From: Carnobacteriaceae bacterium zg-84
GTDB lineage: Bacteria > Bacillota > Bacilli > Lactobacillales > Aerococcaceae
Assembly: GCA_013874835.1 (NCBI GenBank)
Contig: CP059430.1
Coordinates: 124,001 to 188,000 of the forward strand
DNA length: 64,000 nucleotides
Reading direction: 5' to 3'
The translations under genes were made by a program, and so were the position numbers. Below, piece after piece: positions 35,179 through 37,964 of this stretch; within the stretch, counting starts at the first letter, position 1; each line of letters starts with the position of its first letter. The notes beneath the pieces are model-generated. The model had not been told where the DNA came from. It searched no databases and saw only the letters and a list, made by a program, of their open reading frames with translations.

Positions 35179-35341
35179 AATAGCGTGAAGCTATTTTGAA
35201 AGGCTATATAAAAAAGAAGTTAACCAAAAAATGAGAACAGATACTTAAAGTTATATCAGCACAGATAAAGGTACTTAGCGTACTTATCAAATAGTAAAAG
35301 GATTGAAAACAACATTTCAACACGTTGCTTTCAATCCTTTT
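35178..35341 (+). terminator. Two hairpins ending the dnaX-recR unit
   Basis: First, AAATAGC/GCTATTT at 35178-35196, overlapping the recR stop, with a short T run. Second, AAAAGGATTGAAA...TTTCAATCCTTTT at 35297-35341 with a CAAC/GTTG inner pair, a strong terminator. No gene is seen between them. Confidence 0.75.
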
Positions 35342-35669
35342 CGACTCTATACCCAATAGTGTTGGTGACTAAATATTTATAGAACATAAAAATATAACAG
35401 AACGAGAATAACTTGTTATAGAGTCAAACTTATTAAATAGTAGTTTGAAAAGAAGATTTTAAGGAATTACTTTTAAATTTTTGCAAGAGTCATTAAATCT
35501 GTTTTTTGAAACAAATATCGGTTTTTTTTAGATATATTCTTTTCTATTGGAAAAACAATATTGAACAGAACTATCCCACACCAAAATGGTGTGGGGAACT
35601 CGGATTTTCTGTTCTTAGAGTCAGCTTTTTTATAAGATAGTTTGTTTGCAATATTTTTAAGAAAATGAG
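35342..35669. other. Non-coding region with three palindromic structures
   Basis: GACTCTATA (35343-35351) and TATAGAGTC (35417-35425) are 9-bp inverted repeats around an 83-bp segment. Inside it, TATAACA...TTGTTATA at 35393-35420 is a hairpin related to that at 36557. At 35563-35614, GAACAGAA and TTCTGTTC enclose a perfect CCCACACCA/TGGTGTGGG hairpin. I see no credible gene on either strand here. Confidence 0.5.
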
Positions 35670-35822
35670 CTATTTTTTAGAATAAATGAGAGTGTATGCT
35701 TTATATAACCAGTATGGTATCAAGATAGCTAAACAAACGCCAGTACCTGCCCAAGATCTTGTTAGATAACCTAGTATACCCAATGTTGCAAAGCAGCATA
35801 GAAATAATAGTGCTTTTTTCAT
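35670..35822 (-). CDS. 50-residue membrane protein, possible immunity protein
   Basis: Encodes 50 residues starting MKKALLFLCCFATLGILGYL and ending TLIYSKK. Two hydrophobic segments (about 4-19 and 28-43) are separated by a short polar loop, with basic ends. AGGAG lies 9 bp before the ATG and the start is 11 bp after the stop of the secreted protein gene, so the two are coupled. Size, topology and position match bacteriocin immunity proteins; this is inference from context, as no sequence family was recognised. Confidence 0.65.
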   Translation of the reverse strand: MKKALLFLCCFATLGILGYLTRSWAGTGVCLAILIPYWLYKAYTLIYSKK

Positions 35823-35833
35823 GATATTTACTC

Positions 35834-36409
35834 CTAAAAATTGATATGTCCATTGTTTGGATAAGCGTCTTGACTATCCCACCATTGGGCAATGGCATGT
35901 CCTGGAGATGCAAGATTTAAAGCAAATTCAATTACACCGGATGAAATAAATTTATTTCCTAGAACTCTGGCAATGGCTTGTTTTAATATGTTTTTTGCTT
36001 CATGTTTTCCTAGATGCGCTAAAGCCGAAACAGATCCACCAGTTAATACACCAATAGCTACATCAATTGCAGCTCCAACTGCATCTACTGTAAGTCCTTG
36101 TTCGTCCCATATTCCTAAGAAAAATGGTCTACTACCATGACTTATTTTTTCATAGACAGGTCTAAAATCTCCTTTTAATTGACGTCTTAATGTTTCTCTT
36201 AAATAATAATCAGAAAGTGTAGGATATTTATTTTTTAATTCTTGGATAAGATTTTCTTGTTGTTCAAGAGTTAATTTTTTAGGGACAAATTTGTTTTCAG
36301 TAAGTTCTTCCCCATAAACGATTGTTGTTTCTAAAGAAGGTATTATAGTACCACTGAAACTGAGACTTAATAAACCACATATTAATAATTTTTTACTTGC
36401 TTTTTTCAT
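35834..36409 (-). CDS. Secreted bacteriocin-like protein
   Basis: 191 residues. A signal peptide (basic MKKASKK, hydrophobic to about residue 25) leads into a charged helical region (about 35-95), then a Gly/Ala-rich hydrophobic C-terminal half (VDAVGAAIDVAIGVLTGGS...) ending WWDSQDAYPNNGHINF. A hydrophobic, Gly-rich C-terminus behind a polar propeptide is a membrane-active toxin layout. AAAGGAG is before the ATG. The context (short peptide upstream, small membrane protein downstream) supports a toxin-immunity unit. Family not identified. Confidence 0.7.
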   Translation of the reverse strand: MKKASKKLLICGLLSLSFSGTIIPSLETTIVYGEELTENKFVPKKLTLEQQENLIQELKNKYPTLSDYYLRETLRRQLKGDFRPVYEKISHGSRPFFLGIWDEQGLTVDAVGAAIDVAIGVLTGGSVSALAHLGKHEAKNILKQAIARVLGNKFISSGVIEFALNLASPGHAIAQWWDSQDAYPNNGHINF

Positions 36410-36457: not shown

Positions 36458-36517
36458 CTAATTTTTTTTCAGAATTCCTCCAATCCACCAAATAATTTCT
36501 AATATATCTATATTCAA
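36458..36517 (-). CDS. 19-residue peptide gene, candidate pheromone
   Basis: A TTG start 7 bp after a perfect AAGGAGG encodes MNIDILEIIWWIGGILKKN and then TAG. The ribosome site is among the best in the window, although no longer protein can be made from it. The core DILEIIWWIGG resembles streptococcal SHP pheromones such as DILIIVGG, which bind Rgg regulators; the gene lies directly after an HTH/TPR regulator and 48 bp before the secreted protein. A leader peptide or an amphipathic membrane-active peptide are other readings. Confidence 0.6.
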   Translation of the reverse strand: MNIDILEIIWWIGGILKKN

Positions 36518-36556
36518 AATATTACCTCCTTTACAGTTATATTTTATATTTATATC

Positions 36557-36596
36557 AAAAAACATAACAGGACGAGAATGTCCGGTTATGTTTTAT
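36557..36596. terminator. Hairpin between regulator and peptide gene
   Basis: AACATAAC-A-GGAC and GTCC-G-GTTATGTT pair around GAGAAT. T runs occur on both strands. In the minus direction it could end the regulator transcript or attenuate read-through into the peptide gene. Its core ATAACAGGACGAGAAT recurs with one change at 35394. Confidence 0.8.
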
Positions 36597-36645
36597 TATT
36601 TTTTTGTTGTTTTTAAATGTTTTTATAGAATTTTTGCATGATTCA

Positions 36646-36657
36646 GAATAAATATTC
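36646..36657. promoter_or_regulatory. 12-bp palindrome downstream of the regulator
   Basis: GAATAAATATTC is an exact palindrome about 130 bp upstream of the peptide start, near a possible -10 (TATAAA on the minus strand). It is a candidate binding site for the adjacent regulator; no experimental motif was matched. Confidence 0.35.
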
Positions 36658-36697
36658 AAAAATGGAGATAGATTAAAAGTTGGTTAGTTATTTAAAA

Positions 36698-37606
36698 TTA
36701 CATGAGTTTTAAATCTTTTTTCATTTCAAGTAAAATTTTTTCTTCAAGAGGTGTATCATTGAGATATTGAGCACCTTTTATGGCAGACGTATAGAAATTT
36801 TTTGCAAGTTTAAAATCTTTCTTGTAAATAAAATATTTTGCTTCTAACATATTAATAATTGGCTTTTTCTCTATATCATGTGTATAAGTAAGTATTTCTT
36901 TAAGCTTATTCAGACATAGATAAAAGTCTGAAAAGTCATCATACTGCATAATAATACCAAGCAATGCAAAGAAACATTTTTGTATAATGTAATATTCAGA
37001 ATGATAATAGCACTCATGATTTAAAAGATTCTGTTTAAACTTATTAATATAATATTTATAGATATGAAAATCATTTACTTCAGCTAAGATACTTAAAAAG
37101 AAAATATCAATAATCAATAAATCATTGAATGAATATGTTCTTTTTCTTTTGACATGGTCAAAATGTTCTTCTAAAATAGCTTTACCCACCGAAAAATCTT
37201 TTGTTGTCACAATTTGCATTTCTTTTTGAAGTATATCAATTGATAATTGTTCTTCTGTGGTTAAGCTATCAAAAAAATGAGTATAGATTTGTTTAAATAA
37301 ATATTCTTTTTCTTGTGTTTTTTCTTTGTGTTGTAAAGTATGTAGTTGTATAATTCTTTTTTTCAAATCGTAGTATTCTTCTGGAAGAATAGTTGTATGC
37401 TCATCAATGAGTATACTTAGAGAGATATTTAATTTTTCTGCAATATAAGAAAGAGTTAATAAAGAGGGTAAAGATTTACCAGTTTCAATACGCGTTAATT
37501 GACGTACACTTAAGTTTTTTTCACAATCACACATTTCTTCTCGTGTTAAATTTTTCTGAATACGTAATTTTTTGATTTTTTGCCCTATTTTCTTTATTTT
37601 TAACAT
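36698..37606 (-). CDS. HTH/TPR regulator, RRNPP (Rgg/PlcR) type
   Basis: 302 residues. An XRE helix-turn-helix occupies residues 1-62 (IKKLRIQKNLTREEMCD...SVRQLTRIETGKSLPSLLTLSYIAEKLN). The remaining 240 residues are helical, with repeated aromatic pairs such as KNFYTSAIKGAQYL that suggest TPR-like repeats. This is the layout of Rgg, PlcR and relatives, which bind short peptides. GGAGG lies 6 bp before the ATG at 37606; a GTG 12 bp earlier would overlap that site. It is downstream of the 4-TM gene and upstream of the peptide gene. Confidence 0.8.
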   Translation of the reverse strand: MLKIKKIGQKIKKLRIQKNLTREEMCDCEKNLSVRQLTRIETGKSLPSLLTLSYIAEKLNISLSILIDEHTTILPEEYYDLKKRIIQLHTLQHKEKTQEKEYLFKQIYTHFFDSLTTEEQLSIDILQKEMQIVTTKDFSVGKAILEEHFDHVKRKRTYSFNDLLIIDIFFLSILAEVNDFHIYKYYINKFKQNLLNHECYYHSEYYIIQKCFFALLGIIMQYDDFSDFYLCLNKLKEILTYTHDIEKKPIINMLEAKYFIYKKDFKLAKNFYTSAIKGAQYLNDTPLEEKILLEMKKDLKLM

Positions 37607-37655: not shown

Positions 37656-37964
37656 TCAGCATATATTTTTCGATAGGTCTTTTTTTAAAAAAGAATAAAC
37701 CCCGTAATAAACGATTGCATAAATCAGATTATTCACTAACCCAATATGAAGTGGTTTAAACACAATAAAATAGATAATACTAAATGAGCCAATACTTATA
37801 TTTACGAATATTTGTTTTGTTGTTTTACCAAAAATAAAAAATAAACTATGCCCAATAGTTACTAAAATAAGTGAAAAAACAGCAGGTAAATTATCGTACG
37901 TCACTAAACAAGTATTGCCAATGAATAGCAAACACAAGATTATAAAAAATAGCTTTTTTGTCAT
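37656..37964 (-). CDS. Small polytopic membrane protein, unknown function
   Basis: 102 residues, four hydrophobic segments, basic tail KKDLSKNIC. GAGGGGTGG lies before the ATG. It shares a promoter with the regulator 49 bp downstream, so it probably belongs to the same system, perhaps in peptide export, sensing or immunity. No family recognised. Confidence 0.65.
   Translation of the reverse strand: MTKKLFFIILCLLFIGNTCLVTYDNLPAVFSLILVTIGHSLFFIFGKTTKQIFVNISIGSFSIIYFIVFKPLHIGLVNNLIYAIVYYGVYSFLKKDLSKNIC

Follow-up and report, generated by a model that had tools for sequence, protein, structure and literature searches.

Organization of the locus

The window analysed here, by which we mean the whole stretch of 64,000 nt, comes from Carnobacteriaceae bacterium zg-84 (GCA_013874835.1, CP059430.1, positions 124,001-188,000 of the forward strand), a species represented by one genome. 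On its minus strand lies a series of reading frames that begins with a 102-aa ORF and continues through a regulator of 302 aa, a peptide of 19 residues, a secreted protein of 191 aa and a hydrophobic protein of 50 aa (Table 1). The 102-aa ORF has no family match in Pfam or NCBIfam, and might be part of the operon. A sequence-only reading of the same DNA had already noted the TTG-started frame with its perfect AAGGAGG, and had placed it after an HTH/TPR regulator and before a gene for a secreted protein; the frame is present, and the gene order is as described.

Table 1. Features of the comR-peptide locus, in coordinates of the window
Feature	Position	Strand	Basis or remark
102-aa hydrophobic, membrane-type ORF	37656-37964	-	immediately 5' of regulator
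ComR-family regulator, 302 aa, HTH + ComR_TPR	36698-37606 (coding 37606-36701 + stop)	-	domain, sequence, AF2 model
ComR-box-like palindrome AACCGGACATTCTCGTCCTGTT	36566-36587	-	between regulator and peptide; one mismatch to core GACANNNNTGTC
Putative -10 hexamer TAAAAT	36541-36546	-	19 nt past box; TATAAT match 5/6
Shine-Dalgarno (SD) AAGGAGG	36525-36531	-	7 nt before TTG start codon
Pheromone precursor candidate MNIDILEIIWWIGGILKKN, TTG start	36458-36517	-	sequence; (M)NIDILEIIWWIGGILKKN-stop, 19 residues
Codons of XIP-like core EIIWWIGG, putative mature region	36476-36499	-	comparison with type-II XIPs and WW peptides of relatives
191-aa secreted bacteriocin-like protein	35834-36409	-	signal-like N-terminus; family A2; putative function
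50-aa hydrophobic protein, possible immunity	35670-35822	-	position 3' of secreted protein; putative function
Decayed second copy of box region	35388-35419	.	81% over 32 nt to 36558-36589; behind operon
Terminator-like hairpin, operon end	35296-35341	-	computed fold

Because an in-frame ATG at position 36565, which would extend the peptide to 35 aa, lies upstream of the putative -10 hexamer, TTG is taken as the initiation codon of the short frame. When ORFs of 10-40 aa are counted on the two strands of the window, this frame is the only one with an SD match of at least 6 nt. At least 5 nt are matched by 27 such ORFs, with a WW motif in the peptide frame alone, and at least 4 nt by 144, four of them with WW; with no condition on the SD, WW occurs in 15 of 2821 short-ORF starts of the window. 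The combination of SD and WW in the peptide frame is more than chance.

The regulator is a ComR

The regulator carries the ComR_TPR domain (PF18710; 5e-50, 170.7 bits, against a Pfam cut-off of 26.5), and the five PDB sequences that it matches with phmmer are all ComR, the best being 5jub (1.5e-42). An AlphaFold2 model built from 32 sequences (pLDDT 90.5, pTM 0.78) reaches a TM-score of 0.77 against 5juf, the apo ComR of S. thermophilus, and lower values elsewhere, namely 0.53-0.56 for PlcR, 0.48 for Rgg3 and 0.42-0.45 for Rgg2. By domain, by sequence and by fold, the regulator is a ComR. The sequence-only reading had instead likened the peptide to the SHP pheromones of streptococcal Rgg systems, such as DILIIVGG, and the strings DIL and GG do occur in it, a likeness confined to sequence. 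However, an Rgg/SHP circuit is highly improbable when the regulator is a ComR and not an Rgg, when the operator is laid out like a ComR-box, and when the informative motif of the peptide is WW.

In ComR, Arg35 and Arg39 contact DNA at the GACA motif, and Thr90 and Lys100 hold the XIP carboxylate, as described in the available portion of PMC5131891. The window regulator keeps these four residues, together with Glu118 and Glu146 (S. thermophilus ComR numbering), and has Glu in place of Asp147. Across 32 ComRs, the window regulator included, neither Arg35 nor Arg39 varies, and 28 of the sequences have Lys or Arg at position 100. Differences from S. thermophilus ComR fall at Arg51, Lys87, Tyr91, Arg92, Glu117 and Gln151, and these changes count against a ComRS-like reading.

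A pheromone-like core with a C-terminal tail

The type-II XIPs carry a C-terminal WW motif, according to the available part of PMC5131902. In the window peptide, the segment EIIWWIGG fits a type-II XIP and is followed by the tail ILKKN, leaving 8 residues after WW. Thus, the C-terminal residues of the precursor, which in type II make up the XIP with WW near its end, are here those of a basic tail, as the sequence-only reading had pointed out. WW is internal, being followed by 8 residues here and by 13 in Facklamia hominis, which implies either C-terminal trimming or another binding register. Since Thr90 and Lys100 are kept, and in view of the placement of WW, the peptide may be trimmed of ILKKN, for which we put the chances at about even.

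The same peptide could be a membrane-active effector, similar to a leaderless bacteriocin or a PSM and co-expressed with the 191-aa protein, in which case the ligand of ComR would be encoded elsewhere or be another molecule. The peptide is hydrophobic, with a Lys-Lys tail and no leader, its internal WW misfits a C-terminal XIP, and activation of ComR by non-peptide metabolites was reported for S. salivarius in a 2026 abstract (PMC12998947). We nonetheless regard such an effector as unlikely, as the position, SD and WW of the peptide match those of comS-like genes at other ComR loci.

Recurrence of WW peptides beside comR

The comparison covered 82 comR loci, made up of 78 loci and four plasmid loci. 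When short ORFs were sought within 500 nt downstream of comR with an SD match of at least 4 nt, WW peptides were found at 29 of the 82 loci, 29 peptides in all, and none at the remaining 53. All except one of these peptides (28/29) end 0-5 residues after WW (0 residues in one peptide, 1 in two, 2 in 19, 3 in four and 5 in two), the exception being that of F. hominis with its 13 residues. With a stricter screen (SD match of at least 6 nt, within 450 nt), a short ORF was found at 37 of the 82 loci and a WW peptide at 21, whereas the antisense control of the same stretches gave one short ORF and no WW. The pairing of an RRNPP-type regulator with a peptide beside a secreted protein, proposed from sequence alone, is thereby supported, with the regulator placed in the ComR family and WW peptides recurring beside its relatives. 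The further expectation that the peptide would be conserved beside homologues of the regulator held in part: WW peptides recur, but they are missing from most loci, and their sequences differ outside WW. Enterococcal WW peptides include MLRFFMLLSNWWVD, MGGFDIFGIWWVQ and MELWSILCGFWWEL, and at several S. suis loci the W motif is split.

Other short genes were seen beside ComR relatives. Downstream of streptococcal relatives (L036, L040, L043, L047, L054, L068, L070 and L071) there are SD-led peptides of 15-17 residues that lack WW, such as MILATLLTALIWIKG and MFGFEVFLSLSFWFSG, and these are pheromone candidates. On small Streptococcus plasmids (L035 2709-4630 and L036 3030-4948; S. anginosus and S. 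parasuis), genes for a short hypothetical protein and an ABC transporter come after that of the ComR relative. Bacteriocin-like precursors of the double-glycine type lie near ComR relatives of Enterococcus cecorum and Streptococcus danieliae (L095 5709-5870 and L054 at about 6291); as these two were the only precursors convincing by eye near 32 chosen ComR loci, such precursors are not used as an argument here.

A putative ComR-box and its promoter

The palindrome between the regulator and the peptide has the same 22-nt layout as the boxes that precede comS-like genes, including the outer AAC/GTT and the GG/CC letters, with its single core mismatch in the right half-site; the boxes compared include AACAGGACATGTGTGTCCTGTT in Enterococcus sp. 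BWB1-3 and AACAGGACATTAATGTCCTGTT in S. ferus. For 80 comR relatives, the stretch between 60 nt upstream and 420 nt downstream of the comR end was searched, allowing no more than one mismatch in the core; 63 have such a box, 53 of them with the perfect core. Control stretches of equal length, taken about 2.5 kb upstream, held a core with at most one mismatch in 17 of 76 cases and a perfect core in none. As the window core has one mismatch, the core alone is not beyond chance, and further support for the window box comes from its spacing and from the AAC/GTT and GG/CC letters on its outside.

With regard to spacing, a -10-like hexamer (at least 4/6 of TATAAT) stands at exactly 19 nt in 55 of the 63 boxed relatives, the next-best gaps in the range of 6-33 nt being 30 nt (27 relatives) and 24 nt (22 relatives). 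With a stricter hexamer (at least 5/6), the count is 41 at a gap of 19 versus at most 7 at any other gap. Behind the window box, TATAAA is also present at gaps of 11 and 17, as the stretch is AT-rich. A sigma-70 scan returned 22 promoter-like sites against 18.7 expected, and the promoter proposed here is not among them. With the ComR-box layout and the 19-nt gap to a -10 hexamer both present, the palindrome is a putative ComR-box. In the genome as a whole, AACNGGACNNNNNNGTCCNGTT occurs without mismatch at a single place, which is the window box facing the bacteriocin-like operon, and six places with two mismatches that were inspected have no convincing promoter, the one with CATAAT at 19 nt lying within a transporter gene. 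With up to three mismatches, there are 70 places per strand versus 40 for the reversed control among the matches listed.

The palindrome can in addition form a hairpin (-16 kcal/mol, z -6.3), and U's follow it on the minus strand; for this reason it may be the terminator of the regulator gene, as well or instead, and the roles of box and terminator could coexist. Were it the intrinsic terminator only, the peptide and the secreted protein would be expressed from an ordinary promoter independent of the regulator, and the peptide would be a leader or by-product. The flanking pairs that reach beyond the 22-nt box suit such a role, in addition to the fold itself. However, the ComR-box layout with its AAC/GTT ends and the 19-nt gap to the -10 hexamer argue against it, as does the stretch between the peptide and the 191-aa gene, which gave no attenuator-like fold (z +1.32). 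A terminator without an operator is decidedly unlikely, and the leader peptide that the sequence-only reading had offered as an alternative is weakened by the same result and by the absence of an Rfam match. A decayed second copy of the box region lies behind the operon (Table 1), perhaps left there by duplication or exchange of a cassette.

The genes facing the box

Neither Pfam nor NCBIfam has a family that the 191-aa protein matches above the curated cut-off, and PHROGs gave nothing at 0.1. Five of the family's 76 genomes, the window's own counted, and 15 of the order's 395 encode homologues; others are plasmid-borne, in E. gallinarum (34.7%, 8e-19) and in S. dysgalactiae (27.9%, 9e-5). The 11 sequences of family A2 end in PNNG[RH]IN in nine cases and in KDNGRIN in two. 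An hhalign comparison (E 1.2e-8) shows A2 to resemble, over its N-terminal 68 columns with the signal peptide included, a 220-aa protein of plasmid pDN281, which by its size and plasmid we take to be dysgalacticin-like. Homology over the whole length was rejected, as the sequence beyond these 68 columns is unaligned and the 191-aa protein has no BLASTP match to the pDN281 protein. The secreted protein is also similar in size to dysgalacticin and streptococcin A-M57, and from these comparisons a modular relationship with the large non-lytic bacteriocins is possible; whole-protein homology to a proven member of the class IIIb non-lytic bacteriocins was not found for the 191-aa protein. How dysgalacticin and streptococcin A-M57 are regulated has not been elucidated, according to the available part of a review (PMC8308785).

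Several other candidates were rejected for the secreted protein. The EntV family matched one of the 11 A2 members, a homologue, with an E-value of 0.012, and hhalign gave a probability of 80 over 63 N-terminal columns of the signal region. A PDB profile of RNA 2'-phosphotransferase (6e-4) passes the usual threshold but covers 37 profile positions in the N-terminal part, and a match to FICD (PDB profile, 0.03) is weak; neither is taken as homology. A phage origin was likewise rejected, with neither locus protein matched among phage records or viral contigs.

Small hydrophobic ORFs occupy the same place as the 50-aa gene at four homologous loci (L030-L033), although their alignment to the 50-aa protein is weak (18-30% identity). 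In a sister species (G002; L033 1180-1997 and 2198-2901), the secreted-protein homologue and the small hydrophobic ORF occur twice in tandem, the second copy of the secreted protein being shorter in its middle. ComR_TPR is absent from the four other family genomes with the secreted protein (G002, G017, G030 and G032), and the coupling of regulator and bacteriocin is therefore local.

Distribution of ComR in the family

ComR_TPR was found in three of 76 family genomes: that of the window, one that is evidently F. hominis (G040), and one of a third genus (G008) with a broken remnant, which covers 50 of 222 profile positions and has one internal stop (L028). In two sister species, the island is absent and other genes follow recR. 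A tree of 32 ComRs, rooted at the midpoint and constructed with the S. salivarius ComR and ScuR left out, has a branch with support 98/99 that sets 17 streptococcal rows apart from 15 rows that include the window regulator. The 17 rows include the mutans-type and pyogenic-type ComRs as well as four of the five from S. suis, and by known group membership we take them to be the competence ComRs. The group of 15 consists of the regulators of the window and of F. hominis, both on long branches, five of Enterococcus, and eight other streptococcal regulators.

The F. hominis regulator is 34% identical to that of the window, and its gene is likewise followed, after 47 nt, by a WW peptide with a tail (locus at L004 2539-2821 and L080 886-4924). 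On the other strand, a ComR-box is followed after 18 nt by TATAAT, and then by genes for a 33-aa peptide with S-TF-S-IV-C and for an enzyme of 871 aa. The pattern S..S..C marks a class III lanthipeptide, and the enzyme matches class III LanKC (2.1e-150), although its 502.7 bits fall short of the curated threshold of 575. This arrangement would make F. hominis a second ComR circuit in the family with an antibacterial-type output. The two loci, from the same family of bacteria, both combine a tailed WW peptide after comR with a ComR-box facing antibacterial-type genes, whereas in F. hominis the output is class III lanthipeptide-like with LanKC, and the box lies upstream of comR on the divergent side, with a gap of 18 nt rather than the 19 nt of the window.

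A probable dedicated auto-inducing circuit

The layout of the DNA suggests that the peptide may be a signal that switches on the putative antibacterial protein, and the locus is probably a self-contained, auto-inducing, ComRS-like pheromone circuit dedicated to one bacteriocin. ComR is inactive without its ligand, and the regulator would be such a cytoplasmic ComR, inactive until ligand binds. The short TTG gene would be translated into a pheromone precursor that is exported and trimmed to a core near IIWWIGG, and an oligopeptide permease would bring this core back into the cell, where the regulator would bind it. Export and import are both possible, as the genome encodes one EcsB/PptB-like permease and five OppA-type proteins. 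The activated dimer would then bind the ComR-box and drive the promoter whose -10 hexamer lies 19 nt on, giving a transcript for the peptide itself, and thus positive feedback, for the secreted bacteriocin-like protein with its putative killing activity, and for the small putative immunity protein. Counting against this reading, besides the changed ComR residues, are the internal WW, the one-mismatch core of a kind also seen in control stretches, the possible terminator role of the palindrome, the 53 comR loci that lack a WW peptide, and the family genomes that encode the secreted protein but have no ComR_TPR match.

Type-II streptococcal ComRS systems (mutans, bovis and pyogenic) have the same elements, with a ComR, a short SD-led WW gene just downstream, and the spacing of box and -10 hexamer (available part of PMC5131902). 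The window differs in that WW is not C-terminal, in that the only mismatch-free box faces a bacteriocin-like operon, and in that the organism is not a Streptococcus. We do not class the circuit as canonical ComRS, since the C-terminal residues of the precursor are not those of a XIP and the analysis turned up no competence output. In output the locus resembles ScuR and SarF of S. salivarius, ComR paralogs with a bacteriocin or transporter output separate from competence, which are activated by artificial peptides that contain a Trp and end in Gly; neither scuR nor sarF was seen to have a short coding sequence beside it (available portion of PMC6703854), whereas one is present in the window. 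The discussion in the accessible part of PMC12445099 states that the signal peptides of the additional S. salivarius ComRs had yet to be identified.

Circuits of this kind have been described mainly in streptococci, and here one is proposed in a bacterium of the Facklamia family. ComR is stated to be confined to Lactobacillales and to be found for the most part in Streptococcus (PMC9765709), and is listed under that genus in PMC10075063, each source being available in part; among the matches listed in the open-access literature, none describes a ComR/ComS pair from Aerococcaceae or Enterococcus. The window, F. hominis and the Enterococcus loci are concrete sets of regulator, peptide and operator outside Streptococcus, and suggest that ComR has been repeatedly used as a switch for antibacterial genes.

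A further question posed by the locus is how a pheromone matures when its C-terminus carries a tail. We tentatively propose, with somewhat less than even confidence, that Aerococcaceae have ComR circuits dedicated to killing, in which the pheromone lies inside its precursor as a WW...G core with a tail that is cut off, and that for ComRs outside the competence clade (Enterococcus, Facklamia and the streptococcal paralogs) the missing pheromones are peptides without a leader, 13-19 residues long, whose genes lie directly 3' of comR. If so, removal of the tail would be a step of maturation that none of the streptococcal ComS in this comparison shows, and leaderless peptides of this kind would be overlooked by annotation and by surveys of signal-bearing propeptides.
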